Shown piece after piece: positions 19,745-33,234 of a stretch of DNA of 37,656 nt. The position numbers and the translations under genes are program-made. Location of the stretch: the NCBI GenBank assembly GCA_900317835.1, contig ONIL01000027.1, forward strand, positions 1 through 37,656, given 5' to 3'. How positions within the stretch are numbered: the stretch's first letter is position 1; every line of letters starts with the position of its first letter. The notes below the pieces were generated by a model that made no database searches, was not told the DNA's origin, and saw nothing but the letters and a program-made list of their open reading frames with translations. The stretch is from an uncultured Prevotellaceae bacterium (lineage in GTDB: Bacteria > Bacteroidota > Bacteroidia > Bacteroidales > Muribaculaceae).

Positions 19745-19814
19745 CAGACTAATTGATTTTTTATGCCCATCGTGCTATATTTTTAATGCAATTTGGGCTA
19801 TTTAGTTGACGAAA

Positions 19815-22007
19815 ATGCGAAAATATTATCATTTTGCTTTTATTATACTGACGATTGTTGGCCTATTGGCTTCGTGCTCGCAGGAGGAGAAGAAATACCG
19901 CATTGGGGTGTCGCAGTGCTCCGACGACATCTGGCGCGACAAGCAGAACTCGGAATTGAAGATTGGCGCCTATTTCCACGATAACGTGGATTTGTGCTTT
20001 GCCGCGGCCTATGACAGCGACGAGCGCCAGATTCAACAGATAGACAGCCTTGTCGGCACGGGCATTGACCTGCTGATTGTGGCTCCCAACCAGGTCTCGA
20101 CAATCTCGCCCGCCATCGACCGTGCCTATGACAAGGGCATCCCGGTGATTGTGTTTGAGCGCAAGACCAACACCAAGAAATACACGGCTTATATGGGTGC
20201 CGACAACTATGAGATGGGACACCTGATGGGCGAATATGTTGCGACAAGACTGGATGAACGAGGCAAAATCATCGAGGTGATGGGCTTGAAGGGGTCTTCG
20301 CCCGCGATTGAGCGCCACAACGGGTTTAGGGAGGCCATTGCCGAGCATCCCGGCATCCAGGTGGTTGCCACCCTGCAGGGCGACTGGACCGAGCCAACGG
20401 CCTATAACACGGTGAAGCAATGGCTTGAGAAGAACAAGGGCGCTGAGAAGATAGACCTGGTATTCGGCATGAATGACCGCACGGCGATGGGCGCCCGCAA
20501 GGCCTTTGATGAGGCTGGTGGCGTGTTGCCGCTGTTCTGCGGCATCGATGGCCTGCCGGGAGAGAACGGAGGCATCCGCCTGGTGCAGGACTCGTTGCTG
20601 GATGCGTCCTACATTTACCCCACCCACGGCGACCAGTTGCTACAATTGGCGGTGGATATCCTTGAGGGGAAACCATACGAAAAGGAGACGAAGCTGATGT
20701 CGGCGCTTGTCACCCAAGAGAATGCCCGCGTGTTGCTGATGGAGAGCGAGGAAATCATGCGCCAGTCGCACAACCTCGAGCAGTTGCACGAAAAGGCCAG
20801 CCAATACCTCGACCAACTGGGCAACCAACGCACGCTCATCTTTGTGGCACTGGCCGCGATACTGCTGTTGCTGGCCCTGCTTGCAGGCATCTACATGTAC
20901 TACCTGCAGCGGGCCCGCATCCAGGACGAGCGCATGCAGATGGAACGCGAGCAACTGGACTTCTACACTCAGGTGAGCCATGAGTTGCGCACGCCGCTGT
21001 CGCTCATCCAAGGTCCCCTGGACCAACTGTTAAGGACCAATGACTTCCGTGGTGCGAGCGATGAGGCGCGTGAACTCTTCAGCATCGTTCGTCGCAATAC
21101 TCATCACCTCACAGGGATAGTCAACAAAATGCTGGATGCCCAAGTGGGCGGAACTGTCACCGATGGCAATGCCCACATAGAGACGCAAAATCTTGCGTCT
21201 CCCGCTCCTGCAGGAGAAATCAAGCCCGATGAGGACGCACCCACAGTGCTTATCGTTGATGACAATGTCGACATCCGCACCTATCTGCGGTCTATCCTTC
21301 AAGGGCAATACCGCGTACTGGAGGCCGAGGACGGCAAACGCGGCCTTGAACTCGCCCGCGAACAGGTGCCCGACCTGATTGTGTCGGACGTAATGATGCC
21401 CGTGATGAACGGTCTGGAGTTCTGCCAACAGGTGAAGAAGGACGGCATCTCCAGTCATATCCCCGTCATCCTGCTCACTGCCAGGGCACTGGAAAAACAT
21501 CAAATCGAAGGCTATGAAAGCGGAGCCGACGCCTATATCACCAAACCTTTCTCTCCGGAACTGCTGCTGGCCCGTATCGATAACCTGCTGCACAGCCGCC
21601 ACCAACTCAAGGACCTGTGGGCCACGAAATCTGTAGCCGAGGCACCCGCTGCATCCGCCGTGCCAGCTGTCGCTACCCCTGCATCCATCGAAGACGCTTT
21701 CATTTCACGCTTTAAAAACTTAGTGGAGAAACGCCTGGCTGACAGCAACTTGAGTGTCGAGGACCTTGCTGCAGGCATGGGGCTGAGCCGCGTGCAGCTT
21801 TACCGCAAGGTCAAGGCCCTGACGGGCAGCACGCCGATTGACCTGCTGCGCAAGGCCAGGCTGGCCCAGGCCCAAAGACTGCTACAAGAGTCAACACTAT
21901 CGGTCAGCGAGATAGCCTACCAGGTAGGCTTCGCCTCACCATCTTACTTCACCAAGTGCTACAAAGACGAGTTCGGCACCGTACCTGGAGAGGCACGCAA
22001 GACATAA
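19815..22007 (+). CDS. Hybrid two-component regulator (fructan-type HTCS) lacking the HATPase domain
   Basis: The start at ATG 19815 gives 730 residues. Order: lipoprotein-like signal (LLASCSQ); periplasmic type I sugar-binding domain (about 25-310; KYRIGVSQCSDD, VIVFERKTNTKKY, FGMNDRTAMGA); transmembrane helix about 338-362; HisKA with His389 (QVSHELRTPLSLIQGPLDQL); then only about 38 residues before a receiver domain (Asp482, Asp483, phospho-acceptor Asp525, YITKPF); a C-terminal AraC-type helix-turn-helix (about 620-728). The N, G1, F and G2 boxes of an HATPase domain are absent. A palindromic repeat (21180-21201) is read in frame as ETQNLAS in that gap. The sensor type and the adjoining susC match the BT1754 fructose sensor family. 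It cannot autophosphorylate by the usual route. Confidence 0.85.
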   Translation: MRKYYHFAFIILTIVGLLASCSQEEKKYRIGVSQCSDDIWRDKQNSELKIGAYFHDNVDLCFAAAYDSDERQIQQIDSLVGTGIDLLIVAPNQVSTISPAIDRAYDKGIPVIVFERKTNTKKYTAYMGADNYEMGHLMGEYVATRLDERGKIIEVMGLKGSSPAIERHNGFREAIAEHPGIQVVATLQGDWTEPTAYNTVKQWLEKNKGAEKIDLVFGMNDRTAMGARKAFDEAGGVLPLFCGIDGLPGENGGIRLVQDSLLDASYIYPTHGDQLLQLAVDILEGKPYEKETKLMSALVTQENARVLLMESEEIMRQSHNLEQLHEKASQYLDQLGNQRTLIFVALAAILLLLALLAGIYMYYLQRARIQDERMQMEREQLDFYTQVSHELRTPLSLIQGPLDQLLRTNDFRGASDEARELFSIVRRNTHHLTGIVNKMLDAQVGGTVTDGNAHIETQNLASPAPAGEIKPDEDAPTVLIVDDNVDIRTYLRSILQGQYRVLEAEDGKRGLELAREQVPDLIVSDVMMPVMNGLEFCQQVKKDGISSHIPVILLTARALEKHQIEGYESGADAYITKPFSPELLLARIDNLLHSRHQLKDLWATKSVAEAPAASAVPAVATPASIEDAFISRFKNLVEKRLADSNLSVEDLAAGMGLSRVQLYRKVKALTGSTPIDLLRKARLAQAQRLLQESTLSVSEIAYQVGFASPSYFTKCYKDEFGTVPGEARKT
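21180..21201 (+). repeat. 22-bp palindromic repeat inside the HTCS gene
   Basis: GAGACGCAA (21180-21188), AATC, then TTGCGTCTC (21193-21201): 9-bp perfect arms. A second palindrome, CTCCTGCAGGAG (21205-21216), follows almost directly. The repeat encodes E-T-Q-N-L-A-S in frame and lies exactly where the ATPase domain is missing. A diverged copy lies at 22133-22154. Confidence 0.75.
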
Positions 22008-22132: not shown

Positions 22133-22154
22133 GAGACACAAGATATTGCGTCTC
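22133..22154 (+). repeat. Second, diverged copy of the 22-bp palindrome
   Basis: GAGACACAA, GATA, then TTGCGTCTC (22133-22154) differs from the copy at 21180 at three positions. It is intergenic, about 125 nt after the sensor's stop codon. Confidence 0.65.
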
Positions 22155-22363: not shown

Positions 22364-25300
22364 ATGAACGTACTGAAAAGATTTCTACTCAGCTTCATGC
22401 TCATGTTGACGTGTACGATAGTGTATGCGCAAACAGAAATCACAGGCACCGTCGTTGACGAGACAGGAGAGACCGTCATCGGCGCAACTGTGATGGAGAA
22501 AGGTACCAGCAATGGTACAGTGACCGACTTTGACGGCGTTTTCACCATCAAGGTCAATCCCGGAGCAACCCTCGTTTTCTCCTATGTGGGTTATCTCAAT
22601 GTTGAAATGCCTGCCAGCAATGGCATGGTAGTCACCATGAAAGAGGATGCTCTCGCCCTCAACGAGATTGTCGTGACGGGTTACACCACCCAGCGCAAGG
22701 CCGACTTGACTGGAGCCGTGAGTGTAGTTAGCGTGACCGATCTGGTAAAGCAAAACGAGAACAACCCCATCAAGGCGATGCAGGGTCGCGTGCCGGGTAT
22801 GAACATCTCGGCCGATGGTAACCCTTCGGGTGCCGCTACTGTGCGCATCCGTGGTACAGGTACCCTCAACAACAACGACCCGCTCTACATCATCGATGGT
22901 GTTCCCACCAAGGCTGGTATGCACGAGCTCAACGGTAATGACATCGAGAGTATCCAGGTGTTGAAGGATGCAGCCTCGGCTTCTATCTACGGTAGCCGCG
23001 CTGCCAACGGTGTCATCATCATCACCACCAAGGGCGGTAAGGACGGCAAAGTGAAGATCGATTTCGATGCCAGCCTGTCAGTACAGACCTATGCCCACAA
23101 GATGAAGGTGCTGAACGCCAAGGAGTTCGGCCAGGTAATGTGGCAAGGCTTCGTTAATGACGGCCTGAACCCTAACCTGAACGGTCTGGGTTATCATTAT
23201 GACTGGGCCTATGATGCTAAGGGTGTTCCCATGCTCAACAACATCACTATGAGCAAGTATCTGGATCCTGCAGGCATTACTCCCGCCGCCGACACCGACT
23301 GGTTCAAGGAAACGACCCGCACGGGCTTGGTTCAGCAGTATAACGTCTCGCTGAGCCAGGGCACCGAGAATGGAACTTCATTCTTCTCTCTGGGCTACTA
23401 CAAGAACAACGGTATCATCAAGATGTCCGACTTCCAGCGCTTCTCGGCCCGTATGAACTCGACCTACAAGTTGTTGCCCATCGGTGACCGCAAGATCGTG
23501 ACCGTGGGTGAGCACTTCACGGTAAACCGCACCAACGAGCTTCAGGCTCCTGGCGGATTCCTGGAGAATGTGCTGCAGTTCAACCCCTCACTGCCCGTTT
23601 ACACGACCGATGGCCAATATGCTGGTCCCGTGGGCGGTTATCCTGACCGCGAGAACCCCGTGGCCCGCCTTGACCGCAACAGCGACAACCGCTACACCTA
23701 CTGGCGCATGTTCGGTGATGCCTTCATCAACATCAACCCGATTCAGGACCTGAACCTGAAGACGACCTTCGGTCTTGACTATGCCCAGAAGCAGCAGCGC
23801 ATCTTCACCTATCCCATTACCGAGGGTACCGTGGCCAATCCGACCAATGCCATTGAGGCTAAGCAGGAGCACTGGACCAAGTGGATGTGGAATGCTATTG
23901 CTACCTATAACCTGGAGCGCGGCAACCATCGTGGTGACATCATGATCGGTACCGAGCTCAACCGTGAGGATGACTCATGGCTCAGCGGCAAGGCTTATGA
24001 CTTTGCCGTCCTCAATCCTGATTACATGTGGCCCAACTCTGCAGTCGGTGAGGCCGAGGCCTACGGCTCGGGCGAGGGTTACACGCTGGTGTCGTTCTTC
24101 GGCAAATTGAATTATACCTACGCTGACCGCTATTTGGCCAGCTTGACCTTGCGCTATGACGGTTCAAGCCGCTTCGGCCGCAATAACCGCTACGGTACGT
24201 TCCCCTCGATCAGCCTTGGTTGGCGCATCAGCGAGGAATCCTTCATGAAGGGTCTGGACTGGCTCGACAACCTCAAGCTGCGCGCATCATGGGGTCAAAC
24301 CGGTAACCAGGAGATTTCCAACATTGCCCGCTATACCATCTTCGAGAGCAATTATGGTGAGGCTGGTTTTGGTGGCCAGAGCTACGGTACCAGCTATGAC
24401 ATCGCTGGCACCAATGGCGGCCAAACGCTCCCCAGCGGTTTCAAGCGCAACCAGTTGGGTAACGATAACCTCAAGTGGGAAACCACGACACAGACCAACC
24501 TTGGTTTTGACTTCGGCATGCTGCGCAACGCGCTGTACGGCTCATTTGAGTGGTACTACAAGAAGACCACCGACATCTTGGTTTACATGCCTGGCATCGG
24601 TGTGATGGGTGAGGGCAGCAGCCAGTGGATCAATGCTGGTGAGATGACCAATAAGGGTATCGAGCTGAACGTGGGCTATCGCGGCAGCGTGGGCGATTTC
24701 CAGTATGACATCGCCGGCAACATCGGTACCTATCGCAACAAGATCACCAAACTTCCCGAGACCTTGGCAGCAGCCGGCACCTTCGGCGGTAACGGCGTCG
24801 AGAGCGTAGTGGGACATCCCATGGGCGCCCAGGTGGGCTATGTATATGACGGCATCTTCAAGAGCCAGGACGAGATTGACAACCATGCCTCACAGAACGG
24901 TGCCGGTCTGGGTCGTATCCGCTGGAAAGACCTGAACGAGGATGGTGTCATCAGCGAGCTGGACCAGAAATGGATTTACTCGCCTGTGCCCGACTTCACT
25001 TGGGGTCTGAACATCTATCTTGAATACAAGAACTGGGACTTCACCATGTTCTGGCAGGGCGTGCAGGGTGTTGACGTCATCAGCGACCTGAAACGCGAGA
25101 CTGACCTGTGGGCCGGTTTGAATATCACCAACCTGAACAAGGGCCGTCGCTTGCTTGACGCTTGGACTCCCAATAATCCGAGCTCCAACATTCCCGCTGT
25201 GAGCACGATGGACAACAACAACGAGAAGCGCGTGAGCAGCTACTTTGTGGAGAACGGTTCCTTCGCTAAAATGCGTAACATTCAGTTGGGTTACAACTTT

Positions 25301-25471
25301 GGCACTGGCGTGTGTGACAAGTTGCACATCGCCCGTCTGCGCATGTATGTATCAGCCCAGAATCTGCTGACCATCAAGAGCAAGTCATTTACGGGCGTGG
25401 ATCCCGAGAATCCCAACTTCGGTTATCCTATTCCTCTCAATGTCACCTGTGGTCTTAATGTTTCATTCTAA
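22364..25471 (+). CDS. SusC-family TonB-dependent outer-membrane transporter (fructan-type)
   Basis: The start at ATG 22364 gives 1035 residues. Order: signal peptide ending VYAQ; carboxypeptidase-regulatory-like domain (about 25-100; GTVVDETGETVIGATV); TonB box region and plug (ALNEIVVTGYTTQRKADLTG, MQGRVPGMNI, VRIRGTGTLNNNDPLYIIDG, ASIYGSRAANGVIIITTK); then a 22-strand barrel ending in VTCGLNVSF with C-terminal Phe. An upstream in-frame start at 22310 falls in the leader right after the -7 element and is rejected. With SusD it imports oligosaccharides across the outer membrane using TonB energy. The neighbouring GH32 enzymes and fructokinase remnant make the substrate a fructan (levan or inulin). 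The susD gene follows after 15 nt. Confidence 0.95.
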   Translation: MNVLKRFLLSFMLMLTCTIVYAQTEITGTVVDETGETVIGATVMEKGTSNGTVTDFDGVFTIKVNPGATLVFSYVGYLNVEMPASNGMVVTMKEDALALNEIVVTGYTTQRKADLTGAVSVVSVTDLVKQNENNPIKAMQGRVPGMNISADGNPSGAATVRIRGTGTLNNNDPLYIIDGVPTKAGMHELNGNDIESIQVLKDAASASIYGSRAANGVIIITTKGGKDGKVKIDFDASLSVQTYAHKMKVLNAKEFGQVMWQGFVNDGLNPNLNGLGYHYDWAYDAKGVPMLNNITMSKYLDPAGITPAADTDWFKETTRTGLVQQYNVSLSQGTENGTSFFSLGYYKNNGIIKMSDFQRFSARMNSTYKLLPIGDRKIVTVGEHFTVNRTNELQAPGGFLENVLQFNPSLPVYTTDGQYAGPVGGYPDRENPVARLDRNSDNRYTYWRMFGDAFININPIQDLNLKTTFGLDYAQKQQRIFTYPITEGTVANPTNAIEAKQEHWTKWMWNAIATYNLERGNHRGDIMIGTELNREDDSWLSGKAYDFAVLNPDYMWPNSAVGEAEAYGSGEGYTLVSFFGKLNYTYADRYLASLTLRYDGSSRFGRNNRYGTFPSISLGWRISEESFMKGLDWLDNLKLRASWGQTGNQEISNIARYTIFESNYGEAGFGGQSYGTSYDIAGTNGGQTLPSGFKRNQLGNDNLKWETTTQTNLGFDFGMLRNALYGSFEWYYKKTTDILVYMPGIGVMGEGSSQWINAGEMTNKGIELNVGYRGSVGDFQYDIAGNIGTYRNKITKLPETLAAAGTFGGNGVESVVGHPMGAQVGYVYDGIFKSQDEIDNHASQNGAGLGRIRWKDLNEDGVISELDQKWIYSPVPDFTWGLNIYLEYKNWDFTMFWQGVQGVDVISDLKRETDLWAGLNITNLNKGRRLLDAWTPNNPSSNIPAVSTMDNNNEKRVSSYFVENGSFAKMRNIQLGYNFGTGVCDKLHIARLRMYVSAQNLLTIKSKSFTGVDPENPNFGYPIPLNVTCGLNVSF

Positions 25472-25486
25472 AATTCAGGATTCACT

Positions 25487-27226
25487 ATGAAAAAGATATT
25501 TAATATATTGTGTGTCGGCCTGGTTTGCTGCAGCGCCACCACTTTGTTTACATCATGTGATGATTTTCTCGACGAGCACAAGCCCCAAGCCACTCTCAGT
25601 GACGAGCAGGTAAAGTCGCCCGAGAATGCCGAGGCTATGGCCATTTCGGCCTACGCCATCTTCACCTCTGCCGAGGATATCAATTCATCATTCTCGATGT
25701 GGAACTTTGACGTCCGTAGTGATGATGCCTATAAGGGTGGAAACGGTACCAGCGACGGTGACGTGTTCCATCAGCTTGAGGTTCAACAGGGCGTGCTCAC
25801 CACCAACTGGAACATTAATGACATGTGGGTGAGGTTGTACAACAGCCTGTCGCGCGTGAACAGCGCCATCGCACTGCTCAAGGAGACTGATGACAGCTAC
25901 TCCATGAAGGCTCAGCGTCTGGCCGAGATGAAGTTCTTGCGTGCTTACGGCCACTTCCTGCTCAAGCGCCTGTACAAGAACATCCCCTTTGTTGTCAACG
26001 AGAATTTGACCTACGATGAGTATAATGAACTGTCCAACACCCAGTACACCAACGACGAGGGCTGGCAGCTCATCATCGACGACCTGATGGAGGCCTATAA
26101 CACCCTGCCCGCAGTGCAGCAGGACAAGGGCCGTCCCACCCGTGGTGCCGCCGCCGCTTTCTTGGCCAAGGTTTACCTTTACAAGGCTTATCGCCAGGAT
26201 GATGCCAAGAGCAACCAGGTGACTAGCATCGACCAGGGTGACCTGCAGAAGGTCATCGAGTTCACCGACCCCTCGCTGTATGCCAACTACGGCCTGGAGG
26301 CTGACCTCCACAACAACTTCCGTCCTGAGGAAGAGTATGAGAACGGTATCGAGAGCATCTGGGCTATCCAGTATTCACGCAACGACGGTTCCACCTATGG
26401 TAACCTGAACTGGAGCTACGGCCTGATTCCGCCCAACATCCCCGGTGCTACCGACGGTGGCTGCGACTTCTACAAGCCTTCACAGAACCTGGTGAATGCC
26501 TATCACACTGGTGGTGATGGTCTGCCCCTGCTCGACAACTTCAATGACAAGGATTTTGACTTGAACAACGACAATGCCGACCCGCGTCTGTTCCTTACCG
26601 TGGGTATGCCGGGACTGCCCTATATGTTCAACCGCAACTTCATGATGGAGGAGACCAGCATTTGGAGCCGCAGTAACGGTCTGTATGGCTACTACGTGTC
26701 CCTCAAGCACAATGTTGACCCTGCACTCATCGGCTCCTACCTCATTAAGGGTTCTTACTGGGCAAGCTCGATGAACCGCATCGTCTTCCGCTATGCCGAT
26801 GTGCTGTTGATGCGTGCCGAGGCTTTTGCCCAGTTGGGTCAGGCCGACCAGGCCATCAACCTCGTGAATCAGCTGCGCTCGCGTGCTGCTACCAGCACCC
26901 AGATGATTTCCAGCTATCCCAACACCTATGGCGTGAAGATTTACATCAGCAACTATCGTGGCAGCTATTCCAAGGAGCAGGCCGTCAAGATCGTGAAGAT
27001 GGAACGCCGTCTGGAGATGGGTATGGAGAGCGAGCGTTTCTTCGACCTCGTGCGCTGGGGTGATGCCGCCACAGTGCTTAACAAGTACTACTCCGAGGAA
27101 ATTGACCACTGTGCCATTTACAGTGCCGCCCATTTCACCGCCAACAAGGACGAGTACCTGCCCATCCCGTTCAGTCAGATTTCGGCCTCCAACGGCCATT
27201 ACACACAGAACATTGGCAACTGGTAA
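25487..27226 (+). CDS. SusD/RagB-family surface glycan-binding lipoprotein
   Basis: The 579-residue protein has a lipoprotein signal with TSCDDFLDE (Cys24), the hallmark start of the SusD/RagB family. The helical SusD core with TPR-like repeats follows (AEMKFLRAYGHFLLKRLYKNIPFV, RPTRGAAAAFLAKVYLYKAY), then the C-terminal signature MERRLEMGMESERFFDLVRWG and YLPIPFSQI. SusD acts as the lid on the SusC barrel at the cell surface and binds the oligosaccharide. It sits directly between susC and the DUF4960-like lipoprotein, as in other fructan loci. Full length, no defect seen. Confidence 0.95.
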   Translation: MKKIFNILCVGLVCCSATTLFTSCDDFLDEHKPQATLSDEQVKSPENAEAMAISAYAIFTSAEDINSSFSMWNFDVRSDDAYKGGNGTSDGDVFHQLEVQQGVLTTNWNINDMWVRLYNSLSRVNSAIALLKETDDSYSMKAQRLAEMKFLRAYGHFLLKRLYKNIPFVVNENLTYDEYNELSNTQYTNDEGWQLIIDDLMEAYNTLPAVQQDKGRPTRGAAAAFLAKVYLYKAYRQDDAKSNQVTSIDQGDLQKVIEFTDPSLYANYGLEADLHNNFRPEEEYENGIESIWAIQYSRNDGSTYGNLNWSYGLIPPNIPGATDGGCDFYKPSQNLVNAYHTGGDGLPLLDNFNDKDFDLNNDNADPRLFLTVGMPGLPYMFNRNFMMEETSIWSRSNGLYGYYVSLKHNVDPALIGSYLIKGSYWASSMNRIVFRYADVLLMRAEAFAQLGQADQAINLVNQLRSRAATSTQMISSYPNTYGVKIYISNYRGSYSKEQAVKIVKMERRLEMGMESERFFDLVRWGDAATVLNKYYSEEIDHCAIYSAAHFTANKDEYLPIPFSQISASNGHYTQNIGNW

Positions 27227-27265
27227 TCACCGTAACATAGTTAAATTCCGAAGAATAAAATAACA

Positions 27266-28681
27266 ATGATTATGAAAGCTAAGTTATTATATATATTCTG
27301 TGCGTGTCTTGCCTGCTGCGCACTTGCTCCAATGCTCAGCTCATGCTCCGATGACAACATCAGTGACCTGGAGTTGTCGGGCAACTGCATGATTGATCAG
27401 CTCTCACTGGACAACTTTGAGGGTATCATTGACCTGCCTTCACGCTCCATCGTCGTTCGTCTGCCCGAGGTCTATGAGACATCGGCCATGAAGGTGACGT
27501 CATTAAAGATGTCGGATGGTGCTGTTTGCAACATTAACCTGGGCGAAACCATCAACATGGACGCTGCAAAGGTGTTGCACGTTAAGAACGGTGACGTTTT
27601 TATGGACTGGACCCTGTCTGTTCTCCATGACGAAGCCCGCATCACCTCGTTCGTGATCAACGACATCTACACGGGTACCATCGACCAGGAGGCCAAGACA
27701 ATTGTTGTCTACGTTCCTGCAACGCTCGACATCACCAACCTGGTTCCCACCATTACCTATAGCGCTAATGCAACAATCTCACCGTCGTCGGGTGTTGCTC
27801 AGGACTTCACAAATCCCGTCACCTACACGGTGAAGAACAATTCAGCCGAGAGCACCTATACCGTTAAGGTTATCGCCATCAGCAAGCCCAAGGCCCTCTT
27901 CCTGGGTTCAGCTCCCACGATGAGCGAACTGGATCCCGAGGCTCAGACTGCCTGCCAGTGGATGCTGGGTAATGTGGAGAGCTCACTGTATGCTTCGTTT
28001 GCCGACCTGCGCGCTGGCACCCTCGACCTGTCGGAGTGCAAGCTCATTTGGTGGCACTGGCACGTGGACGGTGGCGTGGACGGCCATGACAACTTCGTTG
28101 CCAAGGGTACCGATGCGATGAACACGCTGAACGAGCTGCGCCAGTTCTACGAGAACGGCGGTGCATTGCTGCTCACCCGCTATGCCGTTAACCTGCCTTC
28201 GTTCATCGGCACTACCGGTGACGACGAGTGGACGACGCCCAACAACTGCTGGGGTCAGGACGAGGCCTATGCCGAACTTTGCGGCGGCCCGTGGACATTC
28301 CGCATCTTTGACGGCCAGAATAACCATGCCATCTATCAGGGTCTCGTAGCTGGTGATAATCCTAACGAGGTTTATTGCACCGATGCTGGTTACCACATCA
28401 CCAACTCTACTGCTCAGTACCACATCGGTACCGACTGGGGTGGCTATGACAACTATGACGCTTGGACCAGCCGCACTGGCGGTAGGATCCTCGGCGTTGG
28501 TGGCGATGGCGCTATCGTGCTCTGGGAGTATCCCGCTCATGACGGCAAGGGTGGCATCATCTGCATCGGCTCGGGCTGCTTCGACTGGTATTCCTACACC
28601 TACGAGGCTGGCTATACCGAGAAGTTCCACAAGAACATTGAGATTATGACCAAGAATGCTATCAACTATTTAACCAAGTAA
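27266..28681 (+). CDS. Surface glycan-binding lipoprotein, DUF4960-like (SusE position)
   Basis: The protein has 471 residues (469 if ATG 27272 is used) and a lipobox LSSC (Cys27 from the first ATG) followed by SDDN, a surface-export-like signal. Residues about 35-200 contain tandem immunoglobulin-like domains (DUF5018-like; SFVINDIYTGTIDQEAKTIVVYVP). The C-terminal about 270 residues (LIWWHWHVDGGVDG, GGALLLTRYAVNLPSF, FRIFDGQNNHAIYQGL) resemble the DUF4960 domain I associate with BT1761, the fructan-binding lipoprotein of B. thetaiotaomicron. It lacks glycosidase motifs, so it should help SusD capture fructan at the surface. It is 7 nt upstream of the first GH32 gene. Confidence 0.82.
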   Translation: MIMKAKLLYIFCACLACCALAPMLSSCSDDNISDLELSGNCMIDQLSLDNFEGIIDLPSRSIVVRLPEVYETSAMKVTSLKMSDGAVCNINLGETINMDAAKVLHVKNGDVFMDWTLSVLHDEARITSFVINDIYTGTIDQEAKTIVVYVPATLDITNLVPTITYSANATISPSSGVAQDFTNPVTYTVKNNSAESTYTVKVIAISKPKALFLGSAPTMSELDPEAQTACQWMLGNVESSLYASFADLRAGTLDLSECKLIWWHWHVDGGVDGHDNFVAKGTDAMNTLNELRQFYENGGALLLTRYAVNLPSFIGTTGDDEWTTPNNCWGQDEAYAELCGGPWTFRIFDGQNNHAIYQGLVAGDNPNEVYCTDAGYHITNSTAQYHIGTDWGGYDNYDAWTSRTGGRILGVGGDGAIVLWEYPAHDGKGGIICIGSGCFDWYSYTYEAGYTEKFHKNIEIMTKNAINYLTK

Positions 28682-28688
28682 TTGACTC

Positions 28689-30278
28689 ATGAAACAGTAT
28701 AAGAATATTTTCAGCCTATTGATGCTGTGTTGCTTTATGCTCGCTTCGTCGGCATGCAGTGAAGAGAACTTCGGCCCCGATCCTTCAAAGGACTGGGATA
28801 ACACCGCATTCTTCAATTCGGTGGACGAGGCTGGATTCCAGACCTACTACAATCCGGCCATTGGCCGTTGTGGTGACCCGATGCCTTTCTATGACGCTAA
28901 GGCAGGCCACTTCAAGGTGCTCTACTTGCAAGAGTTTGACAACAATGCCGCTTTCAACTACCACCCCTTCTGGGGCGTGTCGACCATTGATGGCGCCAAC
29001 TATCAGTCACTGGGCGAGGTACTGCCCACAGGCACCTCTCCCGACGAGCAGGATGCTGCCCTGGGTACAGGCTGCTGTATCTACAATGAGAAGGATGGTT
29101 TGTACTACATCTATTACACGGGACATGACCGTTATGGCCGCGAAGCCGTGATGAGGGCAACCTCAGCCGACTTCAAGGACTGGTCAAAGGACGCCGTGTG
29201 GATGTTGAAGGGCTCAGCCTATGGCTACTCGGACAACGACTTCCGCGACCCGCAGATCTTTGTTGCTGATGACGGCCTTTACCACATGGTCATCTCCAGC
29301 AACCTGAAGTTTGCCGAGTTCAAATCCAGCGACTTGAAGGTGTGGGAACACGTCGGCAACTTCCCCATGATCTGGGACCGCATGTGTGAGTGCCCCGACA
29401 TCTTCAAGATGGGCAATTACTGGTATCTCGTTTACAGTGAGGGTTATCGTGCCTCATGGAGCCGCAAGGTGAAGTACATGATGGCAACCTCTTGGGAGGC
29501 TCTCAGGGCCTGCTTCAACGATCCCGGTGCCAACTGGCCCCGCGACGGTCATGAGGGCATTCTCGACACCCGCGCGTTCTATGCCGGCAAGACGGCTAGC
29601 AATGGCCAGGACCGCTACATTTGGGGTTGGTGCCCCTACCGCACGGGTAACACCATCCATGACAAGAATGTCAACGTAGGTGCCGGTGGCGAGCCCAACT
29701 GGTCGGGTGCGCTGGTATGCCACAAGATCATCCAGCATGCCGACGGTACGCTCACCCTGGGCGAGGTGCCTGCTATCGCTGCTAAGTTCAACAATGAGCA
29801 GAACGTCAAGGTGATGGCCAGCAGCGGTGCCCAAATGAGCGGTGTCAACGGCAAGCTTTCAGGCGACGGCGCATTCGTGCTGTACAACCGCCTGGGAACC
29901 AGCAACCACATCTCATTCACGGTGACCACGTCCAACAACTGGGACCGCTTCGGCATCTCGCTGGTGCGTGGTACCGACAGCGATCTTTATTACACGATGA
30001 TGGTCAACCCCGAGGATGAGAACCACCGCAAGGTGAACTTCGAGCAAGAGGGTAGCGCTGGTAAGGGCTTTATCGAGGGTATCGACGGCTATTGGTTTGA
30101 GCGTCCTGCCGACAACGTATATCACATCAACATCTACACCGACAACTCGGTGATGGTGATGTATATTAACGATGTCTGCTGTTACACCAACCGCATCTAC
30201 GGTATCCAGAAGAACTGCTGGAGTATCAACAACTATGGCGGCAATATCACCATTTCGGACCTGAAAGTGTTCCAGTAA
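28689..30278 (+). CDS. GH32 lipoprotein, probable surface endo-acting fructanase (levanase-like)
   Basis: The 529-residue protein has a lipobox SSAC (Cys23) followed by SEEN, which suggests surface display. It is a five-blade GH32 propeller plus C-terminal beta-sandwich. Key acids can be placed: nucleophile Asp63 in RCGDPMPFYD (the usual WMNDPNG is replaced), transition-state stabiliser Asp187 in FRDPQIF and acid/base Glu234 in CECPDIF. The divergent first motif and lipid anchor match the BT1760 endo-levanase type. The C-terminal part (SFTVTTSNNWDRFG, INNYGGNITISDLKVF) is a DUF4975-like sandwich. By position and type it cuts fructan at the surface so that SusC/SusD can import the products. 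Levan rather than inulin specificity is a guess from homology. Confidence 0.87.
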   Translation: MKQYKNIFSLLMLCCFMLASSACSEENFGPDPSKDWDNTAFFNSVDEAGFQTYYNPAIGRCGDPMPFYDAKAGHFKVLYLQEFDNNAAFNYHPFWGVSTIDGANYQSLGEVLPTGTSPDEQDAALGTGCCIYNEKDGLYYIYYTGHDRYGREAVMRATSADFKDWSKDAVWMLKGSAYGYSDNDFRDPQIFVADDGLYHMVISSNLKFAEFKSSDLKVWEHVGNFPMIWDRMCECPDIFKMGNYWYLVYSEGYRASWSRKVKYMMATSWEALRACFNDPGANWPRDGHEGILDTRAFYAGKTASNGQDRYIWGWCPYRTGNTIHDKNVNVGAGGEPNWSGALVCHKIIQHADGTLTLGEVPAIAAKFNNEQNVKVMASSGAQMSGVNGKLSGDGAFVLYNRLGTSNHISFTVTTSNNWDRFGISLVRGTDSDLYYTMMVNPEDENHRKVNFEQEGSAGKGFIEGIDGYWFERPADNVYHINIYTDNSVMVMYINDVCCYTNRIYGIQKNCWSINNYGGNITISDLKVFQ

Positions 30279-30290
30279 ACGTCCTTTACT

Positions 30291-31955
30291 ATGATGAACA
30301 GATTATTAACTATTCTGGCGGCAGTGCTCGTGGCCTTCTCGGCCACGGCACTGGCCCCCCAGATGTTGAGCGAAAACCACGCCATGCTGCGGGTTGACGC
30401 TACGGGTAAGTACCTCTTGCTGCCCGTGCAGGAGAAAGAGGAGAACGCCTACGTGCGCGTTATCGTGGACAACGAGCAGGTGCAGACGCTCAACGTGCGC
30501 TTTGCTGTGGACAAGGTGGACTACTATGTGCCATTGGATATCCAGCGCTTCGGCAACAAGAAGGTGCTGGTCGATATTTCCTTCCATGGTGACCGCCGCA
30601 CGACGGGTGCCGTCAAGGACTTTGTCTGCTGGCGCGAGATGCGGGTGACCGACACATTTGACGATGCAAATCGCGAGCGTTTCCGTCCCGCCTATCACCA
30701 CACGCCAGCCTATGGCTGGATGAACGACCCCAACGGTATGTTCTACAAGGATGGCGTTTGGCACCTGTACTACCAGTTCAACCCCTACGGCTCGCAGTGG
30801 GAGAACATGACTTGGGGACACTCGACCTCGACCGACCTGATCCACTGGACGCCCCAACCCATCGCCATCGAGCCTGATGCGTTGGGAACCATCTTCTCGG
30901 GCTCCTGTGTGACCAATGGTGACGAAGTTGTGGCCATTTATACCTCAGCCGGACAAAACCAGACGCAGTCTATCGCCATCTCGCACGACAACGGCTTGAC
31001 CTTCGAGAAATATGAGGGCAACCCTGTCTTGACGAGCGACGTGCCAGACTTCCGCGACCCGAATCCTTTCTGGAACAGCGACATCAACGCTTGGAACATG
31101 ATTCTTGCTGCTGGTCAGGAGATGAACATCTACAGCTCCAAAGATCTGAAGTCCTGGAAGTATGAGAGCTCCTTTGGCAAGGAATATGGTAACCACGGTG
31201 GTGTGTGGGAGTGCCCCGACCTGATGAAAATCGACGGCAAGTGGGTATTGCTGTGCAACATTAATCCCGGCGGTCCCTTTGGCGGTTCAGCAACGCAGTA
31301 CTTTGTGGGCAACTTCGACGGCCACAAGTTCACATGTGAGTCGATGCCCAAGGTCACCAAATGGATGGACTACGGCAAGGACCACTATGCCACAGTATCG
31401 TTCTATAACGCGCCCGCTGGCCGTCATGTGGTAATTGCGTGGATGTCTAACTGGCAGTATGCCAACCAGGTGCCCACCCGCCAGTTCCGCAGCGCCAACT
31501 CGATTCCCCGCGACCTGGGCCTGTTCACCGACGGCGAAGAGTCCTACGTCAGCGTGAAGCCCTCGCCCGAGATGCTCGCAGCGCGCGGTGCCAAGGTGAA
31601 AAAGCCGACCGAGACCTGCGAAATCGTCGTGGACGTGAAAAACTCGATGGAGTTGACCCTGTCTAACGCCAATGGCGAGCAGGTGGTGATGAAATATGAT
31701 GCAGCCAAGCAGACCTTTGAGATGGACCGTAAGGCCAGCGGTGATGCCTCCTTCAGTGAAGCCTTCCCCGTTGAGACTGTCGCTCCCACCCATGGCGCCA
31801 TCAAGCAACTGCGCATCTTCATCGACCGTTGCAGCATCGAGGCCTTTGATGCCGACGGCAAGATGGCGATGACCAACCTCGTGTTCCCCACCACGCCTTA
31901 CACCAACCTCAAGGTCAAGGGCGGTAAGGCCACGATTTACCAAATCAACTACTAA
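30291..31955 (+). CDS. GH32 exo-fructanase (periplasmic fructosidase)
   Basis: The 554-residue protein has an ordinary Sec signal (AFSATALAP) and no lipobox, so it should be periplasmic. After an extra N-terminal beta domain (about 25-120), the canonical GH32 motifs appear: YGWMNDPNG (nucleophile Asp146), FRDPNPFW (Asp256) and WECPDL (acid/base Glu307). The C-terminal sandwich includes LRIFIDRCSIEAFDADGK. Such enzymes release fructose from the ends of imported fructo-oligosaccharides. ATG 30291 and 30294 are both possible starts. It lies 12 nt after the first GH32 gene. The two GH32 enzymes divide the work: surface endo cutting, then periplasmic exo trimming. Confidence 0.93.
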   Translation: MMNRLLTILAAVLVAFSATALAPQMLSENHAMLRVDATGKYLLLPVQEKEENAYVRVIVDNEQVQTLNVRFAVDKVDYYVPLDIQRFGNKKVLVDISFHGDRRTTGAVKDFVCWREMRVTDTFDDANRERFRPAYHHTPAYGWMNDPNGMFYKDGVWHLYYQFNPYGSQWENMTWGHSTSTDLIHWTPQPIAIEPDALGTIFSGSCVTNGDEVVAIYTSAGQNQTQSIAISHDNGLTFEKYEGNPVLTSDVPDFRDPNPFWNSDINAWNMILAAGQEMNIYSSKDLKSWKYESSFGKEYGNHGGVWECPDLMKIDGKWVLLCNINPGGPFGGSATQYFVGNFDGHKFTCESMPKVTKWMDYGKDHYATVSFYNAPAGRHVVIAWMSNWQYANQVPTRQFRSANSIPRDLGLFTDGEESYVSVKPSPEMLAARGAKVKKPTETCEIVVDVKNSMELTLSNANGEQVVMKYDAAKQTFEMDRKASGDASFSEAFPVETVAPTHGAIKQLRIFIDRCSIEAFDADGKMAMTNLVFPTTPYTNLKVKGGKATIYQINY

Positions 31956-32064
31956 AAACCAAAAACTACGAATTGCACGAATTTCACAAATTATTAATCG
32001 GTTGAAATAAATAGTTGGTATTAATTAGCGTAATGAGTAGTTGAGCAACTTAAAACTAAATAAA

Positions 32065-33234
32065 ATGGCAAAGACTAATAAAATCGCGATCATTGCGGTC
32101 ATGCTGTGCTTCTTCTGCATGGGCTTCGTTGACCTCGTGGGTATCGCCTCCAATTATGTGAAAGAAGATCTCAACCTATCGGACTCGGTGGCCAACATCT
32201 TCCCTTCACTGGTGTTCTTCTGGTTCCTTATCTTCAGCGTTCCCACGGGCATGCTGATGAACAAGATTGGCCGCAAAAAGACCGTTTTGCTCTCGCTGGC
32301 TGTGACCATTCTTTCGCTGATGATTCCGTTGTTCGGCAACAGTTTTGCCGTGATGCTCATCGCCTTCTCGCTGCTGGGTATCGGCAACGCGTTGATGCAG
32401 ACCTCGCTCAACCCCCTGGTATCGACCGTGATGGGCGGTGGTAACTTGGCATCGACGTTGACCTTCGGCCAGTTTATCAAGGCCATCGCCTCGTTCCTGG
32501 CGCCTTATCTGGCCATGTGGGGTGCAACGCAGGCGATTCCCAGTCTGGGACTTGACTGGCGTGTGCTGTTCGCCATCTATTTTGTGGTAGGCACCTTCTC
32601 GGCTGTCTTGTTAGGTGTAACCCCCATCCATGAGGAGAAAATCGAGGGTAAGCCTTCGACCTTTGTGGAGTGCTTCAAGCTCCTCGGTGAGCCCATCGTG
32701 CTGCTCTCGTTCCTGGGCATCATGTGCCATGTGGGCATCGACGTGGGTACCAACACCACCGCTCCCAAGATTCTCATGGAGCGCTTGGGCATGACGCTGA
32801 ACGAGGCTGCGTTTGCCACCTCGCTATACTTCATCTTCCGTACCATCGGCTGCTTGACCGGCTCGTTCTTCCTGCGCGTGCTCAAGATGAGAACGTTCTT
32901 CATCATCAGCGTCATCATGATGGCCCTATCGATGTGCGGTCTGTTCTTCGGCCACGAGAAGTGGATCCTTTACACCGCTATCGCCCTTGTGGGTTACGGA
33001 AACTCTAACGTATTCTCTATGTGCTTTGCCACGGCTCTCGAGTCGATGCCTAAGAAGCAGAACGAGGTATCCGGCCTGATGATCATGGGTCTGTTCGGTG
33101 GCACGATTTTCCCGCTGTTGATGGGCTTCGCCAGCGACGCTGTCGGCCAGGCAGGTGCTGTGGCTGTAATGGCTGTCGGTGTCATCTACCTGTTCACCTA
33201 CATCAAGCAACTCAATCCCGCAACTAAAAGCTAA
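32065..33234 (+). CDS. MFS sugar permease (fructose importer, FucP/GluP-like)
   Basis: The start at ATG 32065 gives 389 residues with about 12 hydrophobic segments. Segment 1 reads IAIIAVMLCFFCMGFVDLVG, and the loop between helices 2 and 3 has the MFS motif NKIGRKK. The family feature GIGNALMQTSLNPLVSTVMG resembles the FucP/glucose-galactose transporter group, as do PIVLLSFLGIMCHVGIDVG and GYGNSNVFSMCFATALESMP. In fructan loci this gene (BT1758-like) imports free fructose across the inner membrane. It is 109 nt downstream of the GH32 gene and 10 nt upstream of the broken fructokinase. No defect seen. Confidence 0.88.
   Translation: MAKTNKIAIIAVMLCFFCMGFVDLVGIASNYVKEDLNLSDSVANIFPSLVFFWFLIFSVPTGMLMNKIGRKKTVLLSLAVTILSLMIPLFGNSFAVMLIAFSLLGIGNALMQTSLNPLVSTVMGGGNLASTLTFGQFIKAIASFLAPYLAMWGATQAIPSLGLDWRVLFAIYFVVGTFSAVLLGVTPIHEEKIEGKPSTFVECFKLLGEPIVLLSFLGIMCHVGIDVGTNTTAPKILMERLGMTLNEAAFATSLYFIFRTIGCLTGSFFLRVLKMRTFFIISVIMMALSMCGLFFGHEKWILYTAIALVGYGNSNVFSMCFATALESMPKKQNEVSGLMIMGLFGGTIFPLLMGFASDAVGQAGAVAVMAVGVIYLFTYIKQLNPATKS

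Follow-up and report, generated by a model that had tools for sequence, protein, structure and literature searches.

How does a sugar sensor of the hybrid two-component type signal when the ATPase domain of its kinase is missing? Autophosphorylation is the presumed mode of signaling in hybrid two-component systems (HTCSs), and the question is raised by a regulator encoded in the 37,656-nucleotide contig ONIL01000027.1 of an uncultured Prevotellaceae bacterium (GCA_900317835.1), the whole of which was analyzed and is referred to here as the window. The regulator is a hybrid protein of 730 amino acids encoded from an ATG at positions 19815 to 22004 (the mechanically called open reading frame opens at a TTG, position 19806). 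It sits directly upstream of a fructan-type utilization locus (22364 to 33234), which encodes SusC, SusD, a DUF4960 protein, a BT1760-like GH32 protein, a second GH32 protein carrying DUF4980, and an MFS protein. Regulator, locus, and all window features described below lie on the forward strand.

The protein begins with a putative signal peptide (19815 to 19877) that, as read from the sequence, contains a lipobox-like LLASC motif (19863 to 19877). The cysteine of this motif is invariant in all 19 aligned ATPase-less proteins, which suggests a lipid-anchored sensor that has a membrane helix besides. The periplasmic sugar-sensor domain spans residues 27 to 341 (19893 to 20837), includes a Pfam Peripla_BP_4 match at residues 55 to 286, and aligns over its full length to PDB entry 2x7x (9e-81), which is deposited merely as "sensor protein" and which we take to be the periplasmic domain of BT1754. 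A hydrophobic, probably transmembrane stretch at about residues 341 to 364 (20835 to 20906), again read from the sequence, leads into a HisKA (DHp) hairpin at residues 381 to 441 (20955 to 21137) with the motif H389-E390-x-x-T393. After a linker come a receiver domain (Response_reg, residues 478 to 588; 21246 to 21578), whose phospho-acceptor is Asp525, and an AraC-type DNA-binding domain (HTH_18, residues 651 to 729; 21765 to 22001). A residue check confirmed His389, Glu390, Thr393, Asp525, and Lys577.

A Pfam search with 19 families returned no HATPase_c match in the 730 residues even at an E value of ≤10, bearing out the original prediction that the ATPase domain is absent between HisKA and receiver. 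The gap, put there at about 38 residues, measures 36 between the two Pfam matches (residues 442 to 477; 21138 to 21245). In an alignment with relatives, the same interval holds 32 to 51 residues in 52 ATPase-less forms versus 198 to 228 in 34 full forms. There is no HATPase gene anywhere on the window's contig, ruling out an ATPase domain that had shifted into a neighboring gene. The regulator thus has the periplasmic sensor, HisKA with its histidine, receiver with its aspartate, and AraC output of an HTCS but not the HATPase_c domain, and its H-E/D-x-x-T/N motif unaccompanied by an HATPase places it among ATPase-less HisKA proteins. It is not a one-component membrane regulator, a class defined by having no phosphorelay domains and represented solely by its short relatives (see below). 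Judged by its domain content, the regulator is unable to phosphorylate itself.

Relatives were sought at three depths. Among 101 genomes of the window's genus, a sensor homologue was found at an E value of ≤1e-30 in 42, and 36 of these carry an ortholog of the window protein at 60 to 100% identity (assigned by reading the rows), including one truncated at a contig end (G124), one split by a frame change (G017), and one with a stop (G117). The other six comprise two longer proteins with a degenerate ATPase (G016 and G074), a short form (G004), a copy cut by a contig end (G116), a full form (G021), and a more distant ATPase-less form (L102) in a single-contig genome (G062). Of 393 genomes sampled evenly across the order, 36 gave a match at an E value of ≤1e-60; full, ATPase-less, and short forms were all represented. 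Two of 15 genomes matched in the genus of G211, a genome that has a second sensor copy with a stop inside its frame (L124; G211:C31:4295-5455). A scan of named genomes yielded 572 relatives, of which the best 80 were kept; these are mostly from Prevotella or other Prevotellaceae and from uncultured Bacteroidales, with two from Muribaculaceae and many from ruminant samples. The best 80 divide into 30 ATPase-less, 45 short, and 5 incomplete loci (L149, which breaks off within the receiver, plus four of the short type that lack the end). None of the 80 showed an ATPase domain; since they are the nearest relatives, these class counts are no estimate for Bacteroidales at large.

Setting aside matches that start after query residue 60 or 340, four partial open reading frames, and 17 of the 80 named loci that were identical to earlier rows, 142 distinct sequences were compared: 34 full forms, 2 with a degenerate ATPase, 52 ATPase-less forms, 49 short forms, and 5 that were incomplete and left unclassified. 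In the short forms, HisKA, ATPase, and receiver are all gone and the sensor, hydrophobic stretch, and AraC domain remain, so that, as far as domains tell, a large share of the relatives resemble membrane regulators of the one-component kind. As far as the 142 sequences are complete (L149 ends inside the receiver), none is a HisKA-only or a receiver-only form.

From the genes neighboring the regulator and the match of its sensor to 2x7x, we infer that fructan is the signal. BT1754, the fructose sensor of Bacteroides thetaiotaomicron, binds fructose (PMC3404733, accessible text), which fits this match. Among loci from named genomes, 40 of the 45 short ones and 21 of the 30 ATPase-less ones are flanked by SusC or SusD similarity, but only 3 of 45 and 2 of 30 by GH32, an absence that means little because the flanks were at most 6 kb. 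With GH32 rarely seen in these limited flanks of named relatives, the evidence for a fructan role is confined to the window locus.

To place the loss in time, a tree was built by a quick search, with no bootstrap, from the sensor and HTH columns alone of 127 rows (the 137 classified sequences less 10 near-identical ones). A clade of 91 rows (SH-aLRT 97, starred) holds 45 ATPase-less forms, 44 short forms, both degenerate forms, and no intact ATPase; the corresponding clade in a previous 78-row tree had 42 rows and a support of 99. In the degenerate ATPase domains (L021 from G016 and L103 from G074), the G1 box is missing, and their scores of 17.5 and 20.3 bits fall below the Pfam cutoff of 26.4, compared with 98.6 and 101.3 bits for two full controls. 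A topology that unites the ATPase-less and short forms in one clade and excludes the two degenerate forms was not rejected (AU test, P = 0.062) and is therefore still compatible with a single ATPase deletion. One ATPase-less form (L129) and one short form (L095) do not belong to the 91-row clade; both have long branches, flagged as unsure by the tree program, and may be separate losses. By these comparisons, and in agreement with the age originally proposed for it, the domain loss is old, common to a clade, and under selection.

The short forms record a further step. In 34 of the 49, the ERV that follows the membrane stretch is joined directly to an LW motif, and this LW motif stands after the receiver in 46 of the 52 ATPase-less forms, a junction that points to descent of these short forms from ATPase-less forms by one deletion. 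The remaining 15 do not have the ERV..LW pattern, and those among them whose junctions were printed (L022, L085, L095, and L210) differ, which makes an origin in separate events likely.

All 52 ATPase-less forms keep the phospho-accepting histidine, the threonine four positions after it, the two acidic residues of the receiver, the phospho-accepting aspartate, and the lysine; the receiver Thr/Ser position is threonine in 51 and serine in 1. The residue directly after the histidine is less constant (E in 43, D in 2, Q in 6, and S in 1), being nonacidic in 7 of 52 ATPase-less forms, at five places in the tree as counted by eye, versus 0 of 34 full forms, all of which have E or D. According to the accessible text of Willett and Kirby (PMC3510030), the acidic residue after the histidine is needed for kinase activity alone and the Thr/Asn for phosphatase activity alone. 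The threonine is also present in 34 of 34 full forms and may be kept for structural reasons. Purifying selection acts on the sensor, HisKA, receiver, and AraC domains: pairwise dN/dS among 22 sequences of the genus is 0.07 for the sensor, 0.12 for HisKA, 0.31 for the linker, 0.07 for the receiver, and 0.08 for the HTH domain, values that are rough because synonymous differences are near saturation (pS of 0.53 to 0.64).

Retention of these residues is not automatic, as seen in a contrasting TPR-type HTCS of the same genus, whose histidine is kept in only 6 and whose receiver aspartate in only 1 of 30 orthologs (the best 30 of 43 genomes with a match). Conservation of His, Thr, and Asp speaks for a continuing role of phosphate, and the drift, in some lineages, of the residue needed for kinase activity alone speaks against one for autophosphorylation; comparison with relatives thus suggests, as originally proposed, a regulator that works without autophosphorylating itself. 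The window protein retains Glu390, and 45 of the 52 ATPase-less forms have E or D there, so this signature of kinase loss marks a minority of them, which leaves room for phosphorylation in trans.

The reading that we favor, tentatively and at somewhat short of an even chance, is that the regulator is a functional, kinase-dead relative of the BT1754-type fructan regulators whose receiver is charged from outside and whose HisKA hairpin removes the phosphate under ligand control. Ligand binding would move the membrane and HisKA helices. Because the protein is predicted to be unable to phosphorylate itself, the tethered receiver would be charged from elsewhere, with acetyl phosphate or a separate kinase as the source. 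The hairpin with its phosphatase motif would act most likely as a ligand-gated phosphatase, or else as an acceptor. The ligand would in this way set the phosphorylation of the receiver and hence the activity of the AraC domain. Lineages no longer needing phosphate control might then drop HisKA and receiver together, leaving one-component regulators made of sensor, membrane stretch, and AraC domain.

We prefer this outside-charged receiver to a purely conformational switch, in which HisKA would be a dimer spring and the receiver a spacer, with ligand binding repositioning the AraC domains directly, presumably as in the short relatives. That roughly a third of the compared sequences (49 of 142) do without HisKA and receiver and still keep sensor and AraC domain indicates that the receiver is dispensable elsewhere; 40 of the 45 named short loci are flanked by SusC or SusD similarity, and the junctions in 34 of 49 short forms point to an origin from ATPase-less forms. 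Against this reading, every one of the 52 ATPase-less forms retains His, Thr, Asp, and Lys, whereas His and Asp drift in the TPR-type HTCS, and neither a HisKA-only nor a receiver-only form occurs among the 142 sequences, as far as they are complete. We regard a conformational switch as the strongest rival, if a doubtful one.

Somewhat less probable still, and in our view unlikely, is a split kinase, the alternative raised in the original prediction, in which the ATPase domain of another protein would act in trans on His389 and the phosphate would then pass from His to Asp. There is precedent for split kinases, CheA3/CheA4 being an example. In the accessible text of Amin et al. (PMC3591291), 1,556 of 42,417 HisKA proteins (3.66%) have no HATPase, and 711 of these carry the phosphatase motif; the text also discusses split kinases and cites split EnvZ as active. 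The explanation also has candidates. At one locus (L204), a kinase composed of SBP_bac_3, HisKA, and HATPase domains with no receiver (L204:4229-5920) is encoded directly upstream of the ATPase-less regulator and is a possible partner. In the window's own genome, the TPR-type HTCS (L230:4073-6928; G000:C12) has an HATPase_c domain of 92.4 bits, with Asn at the positions of both the HisKA histidine and the receiver aspartate, and proteins of this type occur in 29 of 36 ortholog-bearing genomes versus 14 of 65 others (a hand count, not corrected for kinship). Against a split kinase, the window has no ATPase gene, L204 is alone among 65 ATPase-less or short loci in having one in the stretch examined, and the acidic residue needed for kinase activity is gone in 7 of 52 ATPase-less forms. 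Moreover, 7 of the 36 ortholog-bearing genomes, three of them 90 to 97% complete, have no TPR-type candidate at an E value of ≤1e-150, and this protein was rejected as an obligate partner supplying the missing ATPase.

A decaying pseudogene or a strain-specific deletion is very improbable: broken copies do occur in some relatives (the frame-split G017 and the stop-containing G117), but the window's frame is open, the domains evolve at a dN/dS of 0.07 to 0.12 in the 22 genus sequences, and an ortholog is present in 36 of 101 genomes.

The linker itself holds two palindromes exactly where they had been noted, GAGACGCAAAATCTTGCGTCTC at 21180 to 21201, read through in frame, and CTCCTGCAGGAG at 21205 to 21216. 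The former matches the window twice at ≤2 mismatches versus 0.01 matches expected, its second copy, absent from the original prediction, being intergenic (22133 to 22154). This 22-base palindrome occurs in 12 places in its own genome at ≤3 mismatches, versus 1 for a reversed control; of 10 other places examined in that genome, 4 are under no open frame of ≥90 codons and 6 are under a mechanical frame that is not necessarily a gene. At ≤1 mismatch, it is found in 42 of 101 genomes of the genus, with up to 139 copies in one, and so has the many near-identical inverted-repeat copies across the genome that characterize a dispersed palindromic (REP-like) repeat. Two repeat copies also lie inside one 243-codon open frame at another locus (L228:1433-1502).

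Of 53 ATPase-less rows, only 10 have a repeat-type linker. In the remaining 43, some of them close relatives from the same genus, the domain is likewise missing but the linker is a different one of similar length, a point that the original prediction does not raise. The repeat therefore most likely arrived after ATPase loss, and the palindrome is, on this comparison, most likely a dispersed repeat with no link to that loss, one that was later inserted into the linker or took the place of part of it. The original prediction had also viewed the palindrome as the patch or scar of a deletion, a view suggested by its position inside the gap but rejected as highly unlikely given the same architecture without it in 43 of 53 rows and its dispersal through the genus. 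Close relatives lacking both domain and palindrome, which that prediction had set against itself, do exist and count against its palindrome part. Least credible is an assembly collapse at the palindrome that hides an intact ATPase domain, which the repeat's location in the gap had raised and which we reject because those 43 rows share the architecture without the repeat and an ATPase-less form occurs in a single-contig genome (G062, L102).

Several known systems resemble this regulator in part. Like BT1754, it combines a periplasmic-binding-type sensor, HisKA, receiver, and AraC domain and lies beside a GH32/SusCD locus, but BT1754 is a full HTCS (PMC3404733, accessible text), whereas the window regulator has no ATPase domain. 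With the ATPase-less HisKA proteins and split kinases of Amin, Porter, and Soyer (2013), it shares a HisKA with phosphatase motif and no HATPase, but it is a hybrid whose single chain also contains a receiver and a DNA-binding domain, and no partner ATPase was identified. The broad kind is therefore already known, as the accessible text of PMC3591291 reports both HisKA proteins without HATPase and split kinases. For ATPase-less or short fructan HTCSs, titles and abstract openings of the open-licence literature yielded no description, which is weak evidence of absence. Another likeness, that of a HisKA hairpin keeping its phosphatase residue without an ATPase, is to the HisKA-only phosphatase fragment of EnvZ. 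That fragment is engineered, whereas the window case is natural and has its HisKA, a predicted phosphatase, tethered to a receiver. Regulators of the ToxR/CadC type are membrane-anchored one-component proteins, and the short relatives (49 of 142) resemble them in consisting of sensor, hydrophobic stretch, and DNA-binding domain alone, but differ in having an AraC-type output and a sensor of the sugar type; the window protein, for its part, retains HisKA and receiver.

The relatives make up a natural series that runs from proteins with the complete relay to proteins without any of it, and the size of the natural set, with 52 ATPase-less forms that keep His, Thr, and Asp and 49 that are relay free, allows a direct test of what phosphorylation contributes. 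For Bacteroidales, we tentatively propose, at less than an even chance, that a fructan HTCS underwent decay or deletion of its ATPase, with the His-Asp pair kept as a ligand-gated phosphatase/receiver switch acting on outside phosphate, and that HisKA and receiver were later dropped together to give a one-component membrane regulator. Surveys that count kinases only by HisKA and HATPase together would presumably miss such proteins, and short regulators of this kind could be overlooked. Textbook wiring is, from its domains, unlikely to be the working mode of the window regulator and, if the series is true, the textbook phosphorelay would be optional for gut sugar sensors of this class.
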